Source: Symmachiella macrocystis
GTDB lineage: Bacteria; Planctomycetota; Planctomycetia; Planctomycetales; Planctomycetaceae
Assembly: GCF_007860075.1 (NCBI RefSeq)
Contig: NZ_SJPP01000003.1
Location: forward strand, 868,001-932,000
DNA: 64,000 nucleotides
Direction of reading: 5' to 3'
The notes beneath the pieces were generated by a model that saw only the letters and a list, made by a program, of their open reading frames with translations, was not told the DNA's origin and made no database searches. This document shows positions 7,867-46,333 of this stretch, in pieces. Numbering within the stretch: position 1 is the first letter of the stretch; every line of letters begins with the position of its first letter. The position numbers were made by a program, and so were the translations under genes.

Positions 7867-8122
7867 GCGTTTCTCCAAAGCGTCTGCAAGGCAGTGTACT
7901 GGTGTATGCCAACTTGCAGAATTCTACTCCGATCGAGTGACATATATATGGCACACCAATAAAGGGGAGGGAGCGAATTGTGAAATTTTTTCCGCAATGG
8001 CCACGCGACGACTGTCAAATTCAATCCATCGCTTCCATCCACGCGGTTGACGGCCTCTGCACCAAAGTGAGACGATGTTCTCACTATTTTCGTGGTTAGT
8101 TTCGTGTTGGCCTGGAGCACTC

Positions 8123-9739
8123 ATGATGAACAAGACGTCGGCCGATTCACCAGTTCTGGTGGTCGGAGGTCGTACAACGGGATTGATGATGGCGGCCGAA
8201 TTGGCACGGCATGATGTGGCGGTGCGCATCATCGACAAATCACCGGGCATCGACCCACATTGTCGCGCCACGGTGCTTCATTCGCGTTCATTAGAGATCC
8301 TGCATAGCCTGGGCATCGTGGATGATATCGTCGCGTGCGCACAACCATTGCACGGAGTCAGTCTGTACGTGAATGGAGAGCCGCGAGGCCGATCCGAGGA
8401 AATGCCGGTCGATTCCCCCTTTCCGTTGAGTCTCGGTCTCCCACAATCCACAACCGAGTCCATTCTCGAAAAACACCTCAACGACCTTGGCGTATTTGTT
8501 GAGCGTAATACGCAACTGACGTCGCTCGAACAATCCGCCGACAAGGTTCGTGCGCGTTTGCTGCATTACGACGGCCGTGCAGAGGTCGTCGAAACGCCGT
8601 GGGTGATCGGCTGCGACGGGGCACATAGCACGGTGCGGCACCAGACCGAGGAGACATTTCCTGGCGATGCGGATCCATACCCCTACTTGCTTGCCGACGT
8701 GGTCATGGACGGTCCCCTAGAACCGGGGGATGTCTATATCTTTCTGCATGACGACGGCGAATTGTTTCTATTCATTCTCAACGAGGGACGCCGTATGGTT
8801 GTCGCCAACGTTGCCAAGGAGACCGACATCAGCCGGGATCCCACGTGCGAGCAGGTGCAAGAGTTGGTCACACAGCGCAGCCAACATGACTTTCACCTGT
8901 CGGACCCGCGCTGGCTCACGCACTTTCACATCAATTACCGACTCGCTCCGCATTACCGGCATGGGCGAACTTTTCTGGCAGGGGATGCGGCGCACGTGCA
9001 CAGTTTGCTGGGGGGACTGGGAATGAACACCGGCATCCAAGACGCACACAATCTCGCCTGGAAACTCGCTTTGGTCATGCGCGGCGTCGCTCCAGCCACT
9101 TGGCTGGACACCTATGAGACCGAACGGCGACAGGTCGCCGAAGATGTGATTGCCACGACCAAACTCGCCACACAGAACGCGGAATTATTTGCCGAACTTT
9201 CCTCCACGGACCGTGAAAAACTAGTTCCTCACATGTTCGTGCCGGAAGGCGAGAAAATGCGGGTCCGGAACCATGAAGAACAAATCGACCTCGACTATCG
9301 CTCCAGCTCCATTTGCTTCGAGCCGGAGGAGGGGTTTGCAAACGGCCCGCATCCCGGCGCGCGGGCTTTAGATTCGCCCATTCATCTCGACGGCCAGCTC
9401 TGTCAGTTCTACGACTTACTGCGCAGCTCCAAGCACGGTTTATTCCTCTTCGCCCCTGCCTCCTCACAAGGTACTGTTTCGACCGAACTCACCACCGCAG
9501 CAGAAGCGGCTGCGCGTGACCACGGGGATTGGATTGCTGTCCACCTCGTTGACGATTGGAATGGGGAGTCCACAGTTCCATCGAACGTTACTCCTATTGA
9601 AGATCCTCAACAAACGCTCCGTCAACGCTATGGAATTGGAGAATCAACCGGCCTGTATCTCATCCGCCCCGACGGCTACGTCGCCTATCGCAGTCGGCAG
9701 TTAGACAGCCTAGACGAATACCTCGCCCGCATTCTTTAA
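8123..9739 (+). CDS. FAD-dependent monooxygenase (PHBH/phenol hydroxylase type)
   Basis: About 538 residues of the class A flavoprotein hydroxylase family. The N-terminal Rossmann strand reads VLVVGGRTTGLMMAAEL, where the middle glycine of GxGxxG is replaced by Arg. The VIGCDGAHSTVR DG motif lies near residue 165 and FLAGDAAHVHSLLGGLGMN (GD motif, flavin ribityl) near 285. The C-terminal 150 residues match the thioredoxin-like domain of the phenol-hydroxylase branch (YLIRPDGYVAYRS at the end). The enzymes hydroxylate aromatic or polyketide substrates with NAD(P)H and oxygen; the substrate is unknown here. ATG 8123 has GGAG five bases upstream; an upstream in-frame ATG at 8075 lacks one. Confidence 0.85.
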   Translation: MMNKTSADSPVLVVGGRTTGLMMAAELARHDVAVRIIDKSPGIDPHCRATVLHSRSLEILHSLGIVDDIVACAQPLHGVSLYVNGEPRGRSEEMPVDSPFPLSLGLPQSTTESILEKHLNDLGVFVERNTQLTSLEQSADKVRARLLHYDGRAEVVETPWVIGCDGAHSTVRHQTEETFPGDADPYPYLLADVVMDGPLEPGDVYIFLHDDGELFLFILNEGRRMVVANVAKETDISRDPTCEQVQELVTQRSQHDFHLSDPRWLTHFHINYRLAPHYRHGRTFLAGDAAHVHSLLGGLGMNTGIQDAHNLAWKLALVMRGVAPATWLDTYETERRQVAEDVIATTKLATQNAELFAELSSTDREKLVPHMFVPEGEKMRVRNHEEQIDLDYRSSSICFEPEEGFANGPHPGARALDSPIHLDGQLCQFYDLLRSSKHGLFLFAPASSQGTVSTELTTAAEAAARDHGDWIAVHLVDDWNGESTVPSNVTPIEDPQQTLRQRYGIGESTGLYLIRPDGYVAYRSRQLDSLDEYLARIL

Positions 9740-39014: not shown

Positions 39015-39088
<74 letters not shown>

Positions 39089-39093
39089 CTTTG

Positions 39094-39426: not shown

Positions 39427-39477
39427 TTGACGCTGCTGGAAATGCAGGCTACAAAACATGCATAAGCGGTGCATATT
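39427..39477 (+). promoter_or_regulatory. Sigma-70 promoter overlapped by an NsrR-type operator
   Basis: TTGACG (39427-39432), a 17-base spacer and TACAAA (39450-39455) form a promoter. Three bases later ATGCAT-AAGCG-GTGCAT (39458-39474) has the architecture of the NsrR box (ATGCAT, five bases, ATGCAT), with one arm mismatch. The box covers the expected start of transcription, as for a repressor. The translation start of the regulator is ATG 39506, about 45 bases downstream. Confidence 0.65.
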
Positions 39478-39505
39478 TAGCCTGTTTCTCAAATTTGAGT
39501 TCCTT

Positions 39506-39934
39506 ATGCGACTGACCACCCATACTGATTTCGCCTTAAGAACGCTGATGTATCTTGCGTCGACCCGAAAACGGACGACGGCGGCGGAGGTGGCGCAGCT
39601 CTATAAAATCTCCACCCATCATATGTCCAAAGTGGTGAACCAACTCGCGCGGTTGGGATATGTGCGCAGTATCCGTGGAATCGGCGGGGGTATCGAACTC
39701 GCTCAGCAACCCGAAGACGTCCGTCTGGGCGATGTGGTTGAAACCTTTGAGGGAAACATGCACCTCCTGGATTGCGTCGCCACCGAAGACGTGTGCGCGA
39801 TTCAATCGTTTTGCAAACTGAAAGGCGTGCTGGCCGAAGCGGAGCGGCTTCAGTTGGAGTATTTGAACAGCCTCACATTGGCGGACGTCATTCCCACAAA
39901 ACGGCAATTCAATCGCATTGAATCCACCGGATAA
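39506..39934 (+). CDS. nsrR: Rrf2-family, NsrR-like transcriptional regulator
   Basis: A 142-residue protein. MRLTTHTDFALRTLMYLAST is the Rrf2 N-terminal helix; Asp8 matches the NsrR cluster ligand. A winged helix-turn-helix follows (AEVAQLYKISTHHMSKVVNQ, RGIGGGIELAQ). The cysteine set is Cys90, Cys97 and Cys103 in LLDCVATEDVCAIQSFCKL, close to the C-x4-C-x5-C of the enterobacterial NsrR [4Fe-4S] nitric-oxide sensor. It should repress its own promoter, and the box at 39458-39474 supports that. The ATG is preceded only by a weak ribosome site. It is followed at 82 bases by the first haem protein gene. Confidence 0.8.
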   Translation: MRLTTHTDFALRTLMYLASTRKRTTAAEVAQLYKISTHHMSKVVNQLARLGYVRSIRGIGGGIELAQQPEDVRLGDVVETFEGNMHLLDCVATEDVCAIQSFCKLKGVLAEAERLQLEYLNSLTLADVIPTKRQFNRIESTG

Positions 39935-40015
39935 ATCACCATCCGTTTATTCCTTCCCTCGCCCCCCCTACCCCAACCTCCCCCCAACATTCATTTTTTA
40001 TCCCAGGAAGTTGAA

Positions 40016-40645
40016 ATGAAACACCTTCCAGAATTGGCCGTTATTGCCATGTTTGTCTCGGTGGCAATTATAATGGCAACGACGGGACACCCGCGCGCCG
40101 CGGTGGCAGAAGAAACGGCCGCCGCTAAGCAAACGGCTGCGGCCGACAAAACCCGCGAGCCAAGACCGGCTACGAAGACGGGGGTGACACTCGAGATTGC
40201 CCGCGATCGTGCGGAAATCATGCACGATGTCTATGCGGCCACATTGGAAGTGCTGCACGAACGCTATTTTCACGGAGCACGGGCCGCGGTTCCCGCCCGC
40301 GCCATGCAGGATGTTTTCTCGACGATCCAGCGCAAATCGAGGGTCGAAGCACGCTGGATATCGGTGAACATGGAGCCGATGAGCATCGACCATGAACCCA
40401 AAAGTGACTTTGAAAAGCGGGCGGCCCAAGCAATTTCCGCCGGCAAGGGGCACTTGGATGTTGTGGAAGAGGGTTTTTATCGCCGCGCGGGCGCCATCCC
40501 GCTCGACGATGGATGCATTGGGTGCCATGCGGGCTTTGCCAAGAAACCAACCGATGATCCGAAATTTGCCGGATTGGTTATCAGCGTCCCGCTCAGCCAA
40601 CAAAAACCGGCACAAGTCAAAACGCCCAAAGACTCGCCGCGTTAA
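40016..40645 (+). CDS. Tll0287/DUF3365-type monohaem protein 1
   Basis: A 209-residue protein with a signal peptide (LPELAVIAMFVSVAIIMATT, cleaved near RAAVAEE). The mature part shows TLEIARDRAEIMHDVYAATL, SRVEARWISVNMEPMSIDHE, and a haem c motif Cys167-Cys170-His171 in LDDGCIGCHAGF, ending FAGLVISVPL. The motif and the central fold match the Tll0287-like haem sensor domain (DUF3365). These are periplasmic haem proteins proposed to bind gas ligands or take part in electron transfer. AGGAAG lies six bases before ATG. It follows the NsrR gene and is the first of three paralogues. Confidence 0.8.
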   Translation: MKHLPELAVIAMFVSVAIIMATTGHPRAAVAEETAAAKQTAAADKTREPRPATKTGVTLEIARDRAEIMHDVYAATLEVLHERYFHGARAAVPARAMQDVFSTIQRKSRVEARWISVNMEPMSIDHEPKSDFEKRAAQAISAGKGHLDVVEEGFYRRAGAIPLDDGCIGCHAGFAKKPTDDPKFAGLVISVPLSQQKPAQVKTPKDSPR

Positions 40646-40759
40646 AAAATAACGGACCGAGCTTTTCCGAGAAATGCGGACGAGCCCACTGCTCATAATT
40701 ACCATTGTTAGTCACTCGTAATTTTTTCCACCTTTAGAATTTGATGATCGGAAAATAAG

Positions 40760-41305
40760 ATGCAAAAGACGTACGCCATCCTATTTGGTGGGGCTATGGT
40801 GATGGCCGTAGCCGGTATCGCTTTGACCGGAAACCGTAGTTCGGTGAATGGTGCGGAACAAAAAGGGCCGGACAAAGCAGCCGTTGAGCGGTCGAAAAAG
40901 ACAGTGCAGATGTTGGACAACATCTACAAACAAACGATCGTGCTCATCACCGACAAATACGTTCACGACGAAGACGACTTCGCCGCGGGAAGTGCGGCTG
41001 TGTTGTTGTTTAAAAACATCTCGGATTCAGGGTCCCACAAGGTGCGGCTGATCGACGTCACGGGCGAACCCTACGAAGAAAAGAATGTCGCGAACGACGA
41101 TTTCGAGCGTGAAGGCGTTAAACGGCTCAAAGCCGGCGCTAAGATTCATGAACAAGTGGTCACCGTCGACGGCAAACATCAATTGCGGACACTGACACCA
41201 GTACCGGTGGTGATGGAGAGGTGTGTGATGTGCCATGGGCATTATGCGGACGTGAAAAAAGGCGCCCCGATTGGCGCGATTAGTTACACCCTGCCGATCG
41301 AGTAA
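40760..41305 (+). CDS. Tll0287/DUF3365-type monohaem protein 2
   Basis: A 181-residue protein with a signal peptide (ILFGGAMVMAVAGIALTG). The mature part has TVQMLDNIYKQTIVLITDKY, DSGSHKVRLIDVTGEPYEEK and the haem motif Cys155-Cys158-His159 in VVMERCVMCHGHY, ending PIGAISYTLPI. It is shorter and more divergent than its neighbour; the region before the haem has RLKAGAKIHEQVVTVDGKHQ, as in DUF3365 redox sensors. ATG has GGAAAATAAG upstream. It sits between the other two family members, all on the same strand. Confidence 0.75.
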   Translation: MQKTYAILFGGAMVMAVAGIALTGNRSSVNGAEQKGPDKAAVERSKKTVQMLDNIYKQTIVLITDKYVHDEDDFAAGSAAVLLFKNISDSGSHKVRLIDVTGEPYEEKNVANDDFEREGVKRLKAGAKIHEQVVTVDGKHQLRTLTPVPVVMERCVMCHGHYADVKKGAPIGAISYTLPIE

Positions 41306-41397
41306 CACACGATGAGGCCTCTGCAGCTATTATTGATTTCCTCGCCGCATCGTTACAATGGGCGATGCAGCGATGGCCGATCACAAGGATACTTAAA

Positions 41398-41970
41398 GTG
41401 AAACAGCATGCTGGCATAATACTCTCGATGATAGCGGTCGTGCTGTGCGCCGTGGTACTTTCGCCGGGTCGATTTGGAACGCCGGCAGGTCACATCAACG
41501 CGGCGGATAAAGCGGGCGAGAACAAACAAGCGGAGGACAATTTACCGACGACCGTACTCGAAGCTCGCGGTCGCGCGCGGTTGTTGCATGAAACGATTCA
41601 TGGGGCATTGCAGGTGGTCCATCGCGATTTTTTCTTAGAAGATGAGAGTGTGATGATCCCCTCCCAGTCGCTAGAAGACGTCTTCTTAGAACTGGCTCGC
41701 GGTCATCATGTCACTCTAAAATGGCTGGTGGTCAACGGAGGCGTGATGAACGTCGACCACAAACCGGCTGACGCATTCGAGAGAAACGCAGTTGTCGCCC
41801 TAGCTGATGGCAACCAGGAGTTCGAAGCCACTGAGGGAAATTCGTTTCGATATGCTGGCGCAATTCGCTTAGCCTCGCGGTGCCTGAAATGTCACGTTCC
41901 CAATCGAACGGATACCAAAGACCGCACGGCCGGACTGGTGATCAGTATGCCGTTGAAAAAACCAGAATGA
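41398..41970 (+). CDS. Tll0287/DUF3365-type monohaem protein 3
   Basis: About 190 residues from GTG 41398, with AAGGA eight bases upstream (an earlier in-frame ATG is at 41365). An N-terminal hydrophobic segment (GIILSMIAVVLCAVVLS) targets it to the periplasm. The mature part contains ARGRARLLHETIHGALQVVH, KWLVVNGGVMNVDHKPADAF and the haem motif Cys162-Cys165-His166 in ASRCLKCHVPN, ending TAGLVISMPLKKPE. It is closest to protein 1 (VNGGVMNVDHKP against VNMEPMSIDHEP). The hairpin at 42002-42019 follows its stop. Confidence 0.75.
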   Translation: MKQHAGIILSMIAVVLCAVVLSPGRFGTPAGHINAADKAGENKQAEDNLPTTVLEARGRARLLHETIHGALQVVHRDFFLEDESVMIPSQSLEDVFLELARGHHVTLKWLVVNGGVMNVDHKPADAFERNAVVALADGNQEFEATEGNSFRYAGAIRLASRCLKCHVPNRTDTKDRTAGLVISMPLKKPE

Positions 41971-42001
41971 AAAGTTGGTAATGTAAACTCTCGTCGATAC
42001 T

Positions 42002-42019
42002 CCGGCGCGGTTGCGCCGG
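42002..42019. repeat. GC-rich hairpin between the haem genes
   Basis: CCGGCGC-GGTT-GCGCCGG is a 7-bp perfect stem 32 bases after the third haem protein's stop. It could end that transcript or stabilise its RNA; no T-run follows. Confidence 0.4.
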
Positions 42020-42074
42020 CAGTAAGACTTCGGCGCGAATGACAAAACGTGGTTAATGTGAATCCAAAAACATC

Positions 42075-43421
42075 ATGAAATCCCGCCTCAGAATCATTAC
42101 GAACTTCCCAGCCACCGTGCCTCGACACCTCGGACAAGCAGTCGTCGTGTGGGGCATCGCAACCGTGTTGTTACTGGGCCACAACGCGACTGCGTTGGCG
42201 CAGCTGGAATTTGAAAAGGCGCCGATTAACTATGGCGACGCTCCCACCGAGAACCCCATCTCCAAACTGCAATCCCAACTCGATGCGGGACAGGTCAAAC
42301 TCGAATTTGATGAACAGCGGGGCTATTTGCCGGCGGTTTTGAAGTTGTTAGACATTTCGCCTGCGTCGCAAGTGTTGGTGAAATCTAAAACCAGCTTTCA
42401 GTTACGACGCATCTCGCCGAGACACCCCCGCGCGCTGTACTTCAACGACGAATCGTATATCGGCTGGGTGCAAGGCGGGGATGTCCTGGAAGTGATGACG
42501 ACCGACCCGCAACTGGGAGCCCTGTTTTACACACTCGCCCAGGACCTGGATGATCCTCCGCAATTCATACGCGATCAAGGCCAATGCATTATCTGCCATG
42601 CGTCGTCACGCACACAGGGAGTGCCGGGCGGACTGGTTCGCTCAGCCTTTGTTGATCCGGGCGGACAGCCACATTTTGGTTCCGGAACGTTCAACATTGA
42701 TCACCGCAGTCCGTTTGATAAACGTTGGGGTGGTTGGTACGTCACCGGCACGCATGGGACGATGCGGCATATGGGAAATGTCGTCTCGGAGAATAAACGA
42801 AAACCGGAACAGTTGGATCGAGAAGCGGGGGCAAACGTCACGGATCTTTCCGAACGGTTTAATGTGTTACCCTATCTGACTCAACATAGCGATATTGTCG
42901 CATTGATGGTTTTAGAACACCAAACCCAAATGCAGAACTTTCTCACCCTCGCGAATTTTGAAAGCCGTTATACGGCGCATTCCGACAGCATTATGAATGC
43001 CGCTTTGGATCGGCCGCCGGAGTACGAGAGTGGTGCCACCAAACGCCGAACTGAGGCGGCGGGCGACAAGTTGCTGCGGTATCTGTTGTTTGCTGACGAA
43101 TTCCAACTCACTGCGCCCGTGAAAGGAACATCGGAATTTGCGAAGGAGTTTTCCCAGCAGGGTCCGCGGGATAGTCGTGGACGTTCGTTGCGGGATTTTG
43201 ATTTGCAAACCCGGATGTTTAAGTACCCCTGCAGCTATTTGATTTACTCAGCTTCGATCGACCGCCTCCCCGCCCGTGTGAAAAAATACGTCCTCCGACG
43301 GCTTAAGGAAGTGCTCACCGCTCAAGACACAAATGACGAATTCTCAAACCTCTCGGCCGAAGATCGCAAAGCAATTCTCGAAATTTTGACTGAGACCAAA
43401 CCCGATTTGTGGCAGCCCTGA
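42075..43421 (+). CDS. Secreted c-type cytochrome with CxxCH motif
   Basis: A 448-residue protein with a long signal region (LGQAVVVWGIATVLLLGHNA, cleaved near ALAQL). A single CxxCH occurs at Cys171-Cys174-His175 in DQGQCIICHASSRTQGVPGG. A conserved-looking stretch follows (HFGSGTFNIDHRSPFDKRWG, GWYVTGTHGTMRHMGNVV), rich in His, Met and Trp that could supply the distal ligand. The remaining sequence, mostly helical, includes ALMVLEHQTQMQNFLTLANF. I recognise it as a planctomycete cytochrome-like hypothetical but know no function. It lies in the same direction as the three haem proteins, 100 bases after them. Confidence 0.7.
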   Translation: MKSRLRIITNFPATVPRHLGQAVVVWGIATVLLLGHNATALAQLEFEKAPINYGDAPTENPISKLQSQLDAGQVKLEFDEQRGYLPAVLKLLDISPASQVLVKSKTSFQLRRISPRHPRALYFNDESYIGWVQGGDVLEVMTTDPQLGALFYTLAQDLDDPPQFIRDQGQCIICHASSRTQGVPGGLVRSAFVDPGGQPHFGSGTFNIDHRSPFDKRWGGWYVTGTHGTMRHMGNVVSENKRKPEQLDREAGANVTDLSERFNVLPYLTQHSDIVALMVLEHQTQMQNFLTLANFESRYTAHSDSIMNAALDRPPEYESGATKRRTEAAGDKLLRYLLFADEFQLTAPVKGTSEFAKEFSQQGPRDSRGRSLRDFDLQTRMFKYPCSYLIYSASIDRLPARVKKYVLRRLKEVLTAQDTNDEFSNLSAEDRKAILEILTETKPDLWQP

Positions 43422-43468
43422 CCCGCCTCAAAGATCATGCGATTCCACCCATCACTGCACGTCCCGAT

Positions 43469-43687
43469 TCAGGACGATGATGCACCGGCTCCCTCATCAC
43501 GGTCCGCCGTGAAGGCTTGGCGCAGTTGCTGTAAAACCAATTGGGGGTCCTGCCCTGCTTGTTGGCAGGCATAGTCCAACGAGATTCCGGCGCAGGAAGA
43601 GTCAATTCCCAGTTGCTGAAAGACTACCAACGACTGCGGGTACTCGATCACCCAATCGGGGACGCTGGTCTCCAGGTCACATTGCAT
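43469..43687 (-). CDS. ScdA/RIC N-terminal domain (DUF542) small protein
   Basis: A 72-residue protein: MQCDLETSVPDWVIEYPQSL, VVFQQLGIDSSCAGISLDYA and CQQAGQDPQLVLQQLRQAF. This fits the DUF542 domain at the N terminus of the Repair of Iron Centers (RIC/YtfE/ScdA) proteins, which respond to nitric-oxide and oxidative damage of Fe-S clusters. The usual GIDYCCGG is altered to GIDSSCAG. The C-terminal di-iron hemerythrin part is absent, so it is an isolated domain. It converges on the cytochrome gene, 47 bases away, and supports a nitrosative-stress reading of this locus. Confidence 0.7.
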   Translation of the reverse strand: MQCDLETSVPDWVIEYPQSLVVFQQLGIDSSCAGISLDYACQQAGQDPQLVLQQLRQAFTADRDEGAGASSS

Positions 43688-43851: not shown

Positions 43852-44715
43852 CTAATTGGAAGAACTGCGTTCTTCGCTTGCGCTTTTGGGGCCGGTGATC
43901 GCGTATCTGACGATGTAGGTCTTCGCGGCGATTTCCAAATCGGCAGTGGGAGTGTGCTTCTGTTGGAGTCCGCCTCGGAACTCAGTCGGAGCAGTCTCCG
44001 CCGTGCGATACTCGAACCAAACATTGGGGGCGTCTCCGGTGAGTTGAAAACGGATCGCCTGACCGGGTGTCCGTTCAACGGCCGCCACGCGCAAAGTGGT
44101 ATTCGGAATGTGGGCATCGCCGAGCATCAGGAGGGTACGAGGTTTGCCATAGGGGTATGCGAGAAACGCGCCGAAGCCGGTGATCTCTCCCCCCTGGTCG
44201 GGCCACGCATGGTTGAGTTGCTGCGCAAACTCGCTGACAGACTCAGCATGTTGCGCCAGCTCGGCCGATTGCCCGCGGAGCCGGATCACGTCCCAATTCG
44301 TTCCCAGCAATCCCCATCCCATTGCCAGCAACAATCCGAAGGCTGGCAGAGCAAGACGTTCGCGGCCGCGCCCCCAAAAGACAGCGGCGACGGCGAGAAT
44401 CAACGTGAGACTCGCCAGCAGGTAACCGAACAGTGCGGCCCCTTGCGACGCGGCTGAGTCTGCCTTGCCCACGACGATCGGCACATACTCCCCCCACGGT
44501 TGTGACCACCAACGAAGCCTGCTCAAAAGTGGTGATGTGTCGGCTGGAGCATCTCGGTCAAAGTAGAACAAGCCAATCAGCGTCATCAACGCAATCGCGT
44601 TCAGCATGATCAACGACCAGACGATACGCCGGCAGGTCGATCTGGATTCCCCATCGCTAGCCAAATCTTCACTAATAGCGATGTCGCCAACCGGACCGCT
44701 GCCGGCTGCTGTCAT
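43852..44715 (-). CDS. Membrane protein of unknown function
   Basis: About 287 residues. The N-terminal half has about three membrane helices (IVWSLIMLNAIALMTLIGLF, LFGYLLASLTLILAVAAVFW, LALPAFGLLLAMGWGLLG). The C-terminal half is soluble: RLRGQSAELAQHAESVSEFA, EITGFGAFLAYPYGKPRTLL and DAPNVWFEYRTAETAPTEFR. I know no family for it. Its start ATG 44715 overlaps the stop of the upstream toroid gene as ATGA, so the two are translationally coupled and likely act together. Confidence 0.55.
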   Translation of the reverse strand: MTAAGSGPVGDIAISEDLASDGESRSTCRRIVWSLIMLNAIALMTLIGLFYFDRDAPADTSPLLSRLRWWSQPWGEYVPIVVGKADSAASQGAALFGYLLASLTLILAVAAVFWGRGRERLALPAFGLLLAMGWGLLGTNWDVIRLRGQSAELAQHAESVSEFAQQLNHAWPDQGGEITGFGAFLAYPYGKPRTLLMLGDAHIPNTTLRVAAVERTPGQAIRFQLTGDAPNVWFEYRTAETAPTEFRGGLQQKHTPTADLEIAAKTYIVRYAITGPKSASEERSSSN

Positions 44716-45833
44716 TTTGATTCCCCCTTCGCATGCGCGAGCGAAAGCAATGCAAATGCCGTGCACAGCCGCGGATCGTTCTCAAACCACTGCTGGTTCT
44801 CGTTCACCCAAGACCCATCCGGATGCTGCGATTGGGCAAGTTGCTGCACAAGGTCGGCTCGCCAAGTCTGCTCGCCATCGGGCGTGGTAATGACATCCAA
44901 TCCCGAGGCTTCGAGAGCGGAACCCAGTGTGTTGTAGTAGTAGAAAAGTCCGGCGAGTCCTTGGCCCGGATTCTTACTGACCGAGTAGTGTTGCGAAATC
45001 CATTTGAGGGCGGCCTTTGCCCGCGGGTCATCCTTGGTCAAGCCGGAGTAAACCAGGCTTTTAAACCCGGCATAAGTCATCGAACCGTAGCTCCGCAGCC
45101 CGCCGTTGGGTGTGTACCGTTCCGATGTCGAGGGATCGACCTTCTCAGTCGGGATCACATAGTAGAAGCCCCCGTCGTTGACTTTGTCGGCAAACTGCGT
45201 GTCGTTCCCCTCTCCTTCAAGGTTTTGACAACGGGAGACAAAGAGCAGCGCTCGCTGCAGGGCCACATCATTGGACGGTGTGTCGACTGCGTGCAGAGCC
45301 TCGATTAAGAATGCGGTGTTGGACAGATCCGGCCGTTCCTTGCCGCTGTAACCGACGCCACCGAAATGCGGGTCGGCCTTGTCGATGCCATCGCCGGCGC
45401 CGATCTGCAGACCACGAACAAATCGCTCCGCGTTCTTCAGAGCCGTGTCGTACCGCCCGTCACCGGCAACACGGTTCGCCTCGGCAAGCGCCATGATCGC
45501 CACACACGTCTCGTAGTTGCGTAACCGGTCGCTGGTATAGATACCGCCGTCGGTCTGAATTTTACTTTCGAGGTATTCCAGCCCCCGCGCAATGAGCGGG
45601 TCGTTCAGTTTCAGTCCGTTACGCAGACCAGCGGTAATGGCGAGCGATGTGACTCCCGAGCCAACTCGCGGCGAGATCGCCCCATTGGCATCCTGCCCTT
45701 TATCACGGAGAAAAGTCAGCCCCTTCTTGACGATGCCGGCTCGCTGCTCCTCGACGGAGCTTGGAGACGAAGGCGTTTCCGCCTCAGGCGGCGCGGCCAA
45801 TAGTGCGGTCGTCAAAAAGATGTTCATGATCAT
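44712..45833 (-). CDS. Prenyltransferase/squalene-cyclase-like toroid protein
   Basis: About 373 residues. An N-terminal hydrophobic segment (IFLTTALLAAPPEAETP) suggests export. The body is alpha/alpha toroid repeats: GLTFLRDKGQDANGAISPRV, KIQTDGGIYTSDRLRNYETC, GLKSLVY-like turns, QHPDGSWVNENQQWFENDPR and the closing TAFALLSLAHAK. The repeated DGSW and YxTxxAI patterns occur in squalene-cyclase and prenyltransferase beta-subunit folds. The catalytic DxDD of cyclases is absent. AGAGAG lies upstream of ATG 45833. It is coupled to a membrane protein gene at 44715. Confidence 0.7.
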   Translation of the reverse strand: MIMNIFLTTALLAAPPEAETPSSPSSVEEQRAGIVKKGLTFLRDKGQDANGAISPRVGSGVTSLAITAGLRNGLKLNDPLIARGLEYLESKIQTDGGIYTSDRLRNYETCVAIMALAEANRVAGDGRYDTALKNAERFVRGLQIGAGDGIDKADPHFGGVGYSGKERPDLSNTAFLIEALHAVDTPSNDVALQRALLFVSRCQNLEGEGNDTQFADKVNDGGFYYVIPTEKVDPSTSERYTPNGGLRSYGSMTYAGFKSLVYSGLTKDDPRAKAALKWISQHYSVSKNPGQGLAGLFYYYNTLGSALEASGLDVITTPDGEQTWRADLVQQLAQSQHPDGSWVNENQQWFENDPRLCTAFALLSLAHAKGESK

Positions 45834-46333
45834 GGTCGATCTCTCTAGCAAAAGCAGTTGGGTTCGGGGGAGTGGAACAGCACAAACGACCGTAGGGCAT
45901 TTCGTTGCCGCCGTCCGGCTTGAAGCGCCTCATTGTTCAAAAGCGAAAATCGTATGGTTGAAGCAAATCACACACTGCTAAACTGGATGCAAAAAGTGTT
46001 CCAGTTGTGTGGTAACGATTTCATAGTGGGATTCTTCACTCGCTGCGGAGGTGTGGCGATTTTTCCGCCACCGGTGGCCAATTATTCGACGGCGAGTCTC
46101 TGGGTGAAATAATTTTTGTAGACTGGTTGTCACCAAATCCCGATCCGAGTGCGGACCTAGTCATCCAGCTAGATGCGTGGGGAGCCCCATCCGCTTTGGA
46201 ACGAATGCCAGCTCAGTTGTCGGTATTGCTTTTTCACCAATTCGGATGGTTTCGATTGACGATCCCTTAAAAGCCACTACCGTGTTGAGATTGAATCTCG
46301 ACTCCAAAACAAAGCTCAGATGGGAGAACCGCC
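45834..46333. other. Intergenic region
   Basis: About 500 bases. A minus-strand frame of 72 codons at 46161-46379 shows no family features, and I would not call it. I see no RNA gene or strong repeat. Confidence 0.4.

Follow-up and report, generated by a model that had tools for sequence, protein, structure and literature searches.

We analysed a 64,000-nt stretch of the Symmachiella macrocystis genome (GCF_007860075.1, NZ_SJPP01000003.1 positions 868,001-932,000; hereafter the window, to which coordinates refer unless another locus is named) that contains a putative nitric oxide (NO)-responsive locus of haem protein genes. On the plus strand, the gene for an NsrR-like regulator of the Rrf2 family is followed by genes for three small Tll0287-like proteins (T1, T2 and T3, collectively the T proteins) and for a larger haem protein, here called CYT, while a lone ScdA_N (DUF542) domain is encoded convergently on the minus strand (Table 1). 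A sequence-only reading of this DNA had listed an Rrf2 regulator, three proteins with one CxxCH motif each, a 448-residue CxxCH protein and a convergent DUF542 domain, and this gene set was borne out by family searches together with the translations.

Table 1. Features of the NsrR-like locus, in window coordinates
Feature	Coordinates	Strand	Details
Candidate NsrR-type operator AACATGCATAAGCGGTGCATATT	39455..39477	+	28 bp upstream of nsrR start codon
NsrR-like Rrf2 regulator (predicted repressor), 142 residues	39506..39934	+	D8, C90/C97/C103; PF02082
T1, Tll0287-like monohaem protein, CIGCH	40016..40645	+	PF11845 26.0 bits
T2, Tll0287-like monohaem protein, CVMCH	40760..41305	+	PF11845 36.7 bits; Cache-like model
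T3, Tll0287-like monohaem protein, CLKCH	41365 (ATG) or 41398 (GTG)..41970	+	PF11845 34.8 bits, scanned from 41398
CYT, 448 residues, one CxxCH	42075..43421	+	Family without curated model
Lone ScdA_N/DUF542 domain, 72 residues	43469..43687	-	PF04405 31.6 bits; one Cys of usual pair

The Rrf2 domain of the regulator was recognized by Pfam with an E-value of 4e-34, and its translation carries the aspartate and the three cysteines that form the NsrR signature (C90/97/103 numbered as in the sequence-only reading). In ScNsrR, three cysteines and Asp8 are the ligands of the cluster (PMC5411485). Among the NCBIfam equivalog models, NsrR scored best with 115.8 bits, followed by RirA with 83 and IscR with 62; since this score lies below the NsrR cut-off of 182 bits, we refer to the protein as NsrR-like rather than as a formal member of the family. 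The shortfall would also suit a different kind of Rrf2 sensor, similar to RirA or IscR, that responds to iron or cluster status, such that the haem genes would follow iron or haem supply; RirA and IscR likewise use three cysteines. We nevertheless consider this explanation improbable, given that the NsrR model is 33 bits ahead of that for RirA, that the upstream operator fits the NsrR motif, and that in one related locus (L197) the gene following NsrR and T2 encodes qNor. From its residues, the regulator would be expected to bind a [4Fe-4S] cluster and to respond to NO.

The palindrome upstream of nsrR matches AANATGCAN7TGCATNTT without a mismatch, and allowing two mismatches brings in no other site in the window. 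A longer nsrR frame from 39458 starts within this site, and the start codon was therefore set at 39506. Because 26 of 100 shuffled windows also gave one or more matches when two mismatches were allowed, the window alone provides weak evidence for an operator. The site fits 11 of the 14 positions of the published NsrR consensus, gATGyAT-N5-ATrCATc (Rodionov et al. 2005, PMC1274295). In the whole 7.57-Mb genome, the extended pattern AANATGYAYN5RTRCATNTT has one match with zero mismatches, at this locus, and the congener G001 likewise carries exactly one perfect site, at the same locus. The sole one-mismatch site elsewhere in the genome was rejected as a target, being located inside a rhomboid-like coding frame (read by eye).

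We additionally scored the regions upstream of the NsrR-like genes at 33 related loci (described below) against control regions that were open frames chosen mechanically rather than proven genes. A score of at least 11/14 against the published consensus was reached by 15 of 33 NsrR upstream regions and by 2 of 242 controls, and a score of at least 12/14 by 7 of 33 and 0 of 242, respectively. All controls from the window and from L083 were omitted; the operator falls within the region upstream of one antisense frame in the window. The published consensus performed better than our first score, based on an ATGCA half site, with which 14 of 33 regions and 4 of 261 controls reached at least 9.0. 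These patterns suggest that the operon is probably the main strong target of the regulator, and weaker targets may exist at looser-pattern sites elsewhere in the genome. A sole-target NsrR regulon has been predicted for the Legionella glbN operon (PMC1274295).

A search of 119 genomes, including that of S. macrocystis, at E<=1e-25 revealed NsrR-like genes in 31; the 33 NsrR loci comprise 32 from this search and one (L033) from a scan for CYT. These loci are related, so that their counts are not independent trials, and several contigs end near CYT or NsrR, where partners may have been missed. The cysteine triad is present at all 33 loci, the triad-bearing frame having been chosen where several Rrf2 frames were present. 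A T gene lies at 27 of the 33 (26 of 32 without L033), downstream on the same strand in 24 and divergent in three (L182-L184), at a distance of at most 2.4 kb; the six loci without one are L178, L179, L198 and L201-L203. CYT is found at 10 of the 33; among named relatives, Blastopirellula marina DSM 3645 (L035) has nsrR, a T gene and CYT together. The conserved-synteny check suggested by the sequence-only reading thus recovered the neighbourhood in other genera, from which we conclude that it is not a product of chance. Together with the Asp/Cys set and the regulator's own NsrR-type operator, this conservation supports that reading's assignment of the regulator to the NsrR type.

The number of T genes varies between the 27 T-bearing loci, with one in 20, two in four and three in three, the latter belonging to S. 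macrocystis, G001 and G040 (L181, in the order T2-T1-T3). The three consecutive T genes singled out in the sequence-only reading are therefore real here but not typical of such loci. T2 is the subtype most often beside NsrR, and 49 of the 119 genomes carry a T2-type gene, namely 26 of the 31 with NsrR compared to 23 of the 88 others, as judged with a profile built mostly from NsrR-locus sequences.

T1, T2 and T3 all exceed the PF11845 cut-off of 24.1 bits. Each carries a single CxxCH, a motif present in 37 of 37 T proteins of the NsrR loci, and the hydrophobic N-termini seen by eye in the haem proteins, combined with CxxCH, suggest that they are exported. A model of T2, the one T protein modelled (predicted local distance difference test score, pLDDT, 82.6), matched the folds of TlpB (E 8e-4), GSU0935, a haem-c domain (1.3e-3), and Tll0287 (6.3e-3); these matches are modest, with query-based template-modelling (TM) scores of 0.36-0.48. 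By sequence, T2 alone found no match in the PDB, and a T profile reached Tll0287 at E 0.04.

None of the 37 T proteins has a cysteine within the 128 residues N-terminal of CxxCH, as judged by distance from the motif rather than by alignment to the axial-cysteine position of Tll0287. Among characterized sCache_heme proteins, fused domains act like NO sensors, and the P. azotoformans protein binds NO and has no axial cysteine; NO binding is weak in the stand-alone P. putida protein, whose haem has Cys/His ligation, and stays weak once the axial cysteine is removed (C59A) (PMC12889525). The cysteine-less T proteins resemble the NO-binding P. azotoformans protein, a likeness that is suggestive only, because NO binding by the P. 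putida C59A variant is still weak and because seven of ten other planctomycete PF11845 domains also lack a cysteine in this stretch (three of ten have one). We infer that the T proteins could bind NO.

The weak NO binding of the published stand-alone protein leaves room for a redox role. In such a redox or electron-transfer module, the T proteins would be low-spin carriers feeding CYT and the regulator would answer redox state. Three small haem proteins beside one larger one do resemble a relay, and the published stand-alone sCache_heme shows redox protein behaviour whether or not the axial cysteine is present (PMC12889525). We consider this explanation rather unlikely in view of the NsrR-type operator and Cys/Asp set, the lack of an axial cysteine candidate in all 37 T proteins, and the location of some CYT homologues beside Hmp, RIC, qNor or protoglobin genes.

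The CxxCH of CYT lies at residues 171-175. Neither Pfam nor NCBIfam contains a family that CYT matches above cut-off; a PDB sequence search gave no match with CYT alone and, with a 40-row profile, a best hit at E 0.19 that was unrelated. Its structural model scored a pLDDT of 92.4 and a predicted TM-score (pTM) of 0.88, and a Foldseek comparison with the PDB returned nothing at E<=0.001, the best hit having an E-value of 0.92. In an alignment of 40 members, CxxCH is invariant, together with residues including R217, Y222, N235, D273, H282 and N288. The family is present in 96 of the 119 genomes, S. macrocystis included, as well as in named Acidobacteria and Verrucomicrobia and in one Pontiellaceae record (Kiritimatiellota). 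A second CYT gene of S. macrocystis (C1:4241508, L121) has none of the tested partners nearby.

After removal of seven duplicate loci, we examined 92 CYT places for partners within 3 kb and found NsrR at 10, another class of Rrf2 regulator at 19, T at 22, ScdA_N or RIC at 8, protoglobin at 4, YwiC at 2, and Hmp and qNor at one each. Any tested partner or further Rrf2 gene was present at 38 of the 92. Four of these places had been chosen for their neighbours (L180, L181 and L185 for NsrR, L216 for RIC); without them, any Rrf2 is found at 26 of 88, NsrR at 7, the other Rrf2 class at 19, T at 19 and any partner at 34. In L041, CYT is followed by the flavohaemoglobin gene hmp (517.7 bits, cut-off 432) and by a ScdA_N-like frame that was detected by a custom profile, not by Pfam. 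In L216, CYT, cut by the contig start, shares four bases with an overlapping RIC gene (247.5 bits against a cut-off of 204.7) that is followed by YwiC and qNor genes. Protoglobin genes near CYT are L044:6037-6618, L113:9694-10305, L115:5436-6221 and L107:5295-6227, those of L044 and L115 being confirmed by Pfam; in L044 and L113 the gene sits between CYT and the second Rrf2 class. YwiC-like genes beside RIC, qNor or CYT were seen at L216:1520-2350 (Pfam-checked), L217:2975-3874 and L051:2192-2653.

In a quick tree of 88 of the 92 CYT rows, frames shorter than 330 residues having been dropped, the label for an NsrR neighbour requires seven changes, of which well-supported branches force three; shuffling gave a mean of 9.6 changes and a value this low in 2 of 500 cases, indicating that the link between CYT and NsrR was gained or lost repeatedly. 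This bears on the idea that the genes adjoin by chance or shared descent without functional coupling. Although 54 of the 92 CYT places have no tested partner within 3 kb, as that idea would allow, at least three forced changes mean that the history of the link includes more than one gain or loss, and a T gene lies near 27 of 33 NsrR genes even though a genome holds only one to four such domains (an undercount, which registers one of the three here). We regard mere adjacency as extremely improbable.

The second Rrf2 class found beside CYT carries a CPLx...CPLH-like cysteine motif rather than the NsrR triad. Regulators of this class face hmp-RIC genes in L215 (S. macrocystis), L217 and L218, with qNor in two of the three, the facing cluster being hmp-RIC-qNor in S. 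macrocystis and in G001; they are candidates for a second NO-responsive Rrf2 type.

The ScdA_N domain of the window lies just under the PF04405 cut-off of 32.5 bits (Table 1) and lacks one of the two RIC cysteines, reading DSSCAG where L035 and L087 have DYCCGG. The hemerythrin-like di-iron domain and vicinal cysteine pair of RIC/YtfE are thus absent from this ScdA_N-only protein. ScdA_N is present at 8 of 33 NsrR loci, in L094 overlapping a long CYT frame, and 8 of 29 ScdA_N places with open frames below 150 residues lie at such an NsrR gene. Its membership in the module, assumed by the sequence-only reading, finds support in this recurrence; its convergent orientation, missing cysteine and lack of an NsrR site of its own in the window speak against it. 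Its relatives vary from DYCCGG to DYSCGG, as if the domain were drifting.

Taken together, we think it probable that the locus is a local NsrR regulon whose effectors are c-haem proteins of the periplasm. An NsrR-type [4Fe-4S] repressor would bind the palindrome and hold off its own operon, nsrR-T1-T2-T3-CYT, which would be co-transcribed; nitrosylation of the cluster by NO would release the repressor from DNA and allow transcription. The four haem protein products would then be exported and given haem c, the T proteins most likely serving as periplasmic NO-binding or electron-relay proteins and CYT as an NO-handling protein, either catalytic or scavenging. ScdA_N, transcribed separately, would probably provide thiol or Fe-S support in the cytoplasm, in the manner of RIC proteins. 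An NO-responsive module had already been proposed by the sequence-only reading, and the predicted NsrR control, the conserved neighbourhood and the links to NO genes agree with it; its run of three T genes is not the rule. The operator, and the linkage of CYT to NO genes in other loci, go beyond that reading.

A number of observations weigh against this NsrR regulon, in addition to the sub-threshold regulator score, the frequency of cysteine-less PF11845 domains elsewhere, the weak NO binding of the published stand-alone protein and the CYT places without partners. At the level of control, 18 of 33 NsrR loci have no strong operator match, ATGCAN7TGCAT occurs at seven places in the genome (chance mean 0.09 per 64 kb), and the ATGCA form at up to two mismatches occurs at 29, compared to 5 for the reversed control. 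Within nsrR-T1-T2-T3-CYT, the intergenic spacing is 81-114 bp, and a weak terminator-like site lies at the end of nsrR (39928-39945); terminator-like sites number 11 in all against 5.5 expected, and a promoter scan gave a signal no higher than in shuffles. CYT is commoner than NsrR (96 versus 31 of 119 genomes), and genes of the T2 type and for CYT are present in the congener G002, in which the search at E<=1e-25 found no such NsrR. Finally, the hmp, full RIC and qNor genes of S. macrocystis cluster elsewhere (L215:2058-7130, C4:146057-151129), facing another Rrf2 gene, and a search of this cluster gave no NsrR site above chance level. Its presence indicates that the studied locus is an additional, probably periplasmic arm of NO defence rather than the sole one.

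We further propose, tentatively and with at best a modest chance of being right, that CYT founds a new class of periplasmic c-haem enzymes with an unsolved fold that convert or remove NO (or nitrite), mainly in planctomycetes but also in Acidobacteria and Verrucomicrobia, and that are partnered in planctomycetes with NO-capturing, cysteine-less sCache_heme proteins under NsrR or the second NO-linked Rrf2 class.

The arrangement resembles the NsrR regulons of proteobacteria and some Gram-positives (PMC1274295) in combining an Rrf2 repressor with a palindromic operator beside NO-response genes. It differs in that the targets here are c-haem proteins, which the available text of that paper does not name, and in that the hmp, RIC and qNor genes of this genome have no such site. 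With the sCache_heme/Tll0287/DUF3365 family (Deshpande et al. 2026, PMC12889525), the T proteins share a Cache-like fold, one CxxCH and a stand-alone form; unlike that family, they have no cysteine outside CxxCH in the domain and occur in up to three tandem copies under NsrR. The main text of that paper makes no mention of planctomycetes, NsrR, Rrf2 or an operon. Like group 1 cytochrome c' (PMC12889525), the haem proteins here are proposed to capture NO in the periplasm through c-haem; no Pfam match to that family was found, T2 having a Cache-like model and CYT an unmatched fold. RIC/YtfE/ScdA proteins share the ScdA_N domain, which here stands alone as the N-terminal domain with one cysteine and no hemerythrin-like domain, a full RIC being encoded elsewhere in the genome. 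In the titles and abstract openings of open-licence literature on Tll0287/DUF3365, or on NsrR with planctomycetes, we found no report of the operon.

If the proposed regulon is correct, NsrR regulation would extend to planctomycetes, probably to their periplasm, and stand-alone sCache_heme proteins would gain a physiological setting. The role of the large, unnamed CYT family would become directly testable, and similar arrangements across planctomycetes suggest undescribed NO handling outside the cell membrane.

Further genes were noted around the NsrR loci. DUF488 is found at six of 33 and DinB at four, with Pfam confirming four of the former and one of the latter; the DUF488 genes include L035:9212-9601, L180:1635-2186 and L094:10084-10779, plus three others. 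In G001, the gene string contains a small PAS-domain gene (Pfam) and a DinB-like gene (clustering) at L083:7035-7493 and 8067-8540, both missing from the window. In G052, a Tll0287-like domain is part of a 649-residue frame (C240:118306-118776, in L179) divergent from NsrR, with no stand-alone T gene. The S. macrocystis locus itself is flanked by tRNA-Arg (39015-39089) on one side and, on the other, by an unassigned frame at 43852-44766 followed by a squalene-cyclase-like gene at 44712-45851.

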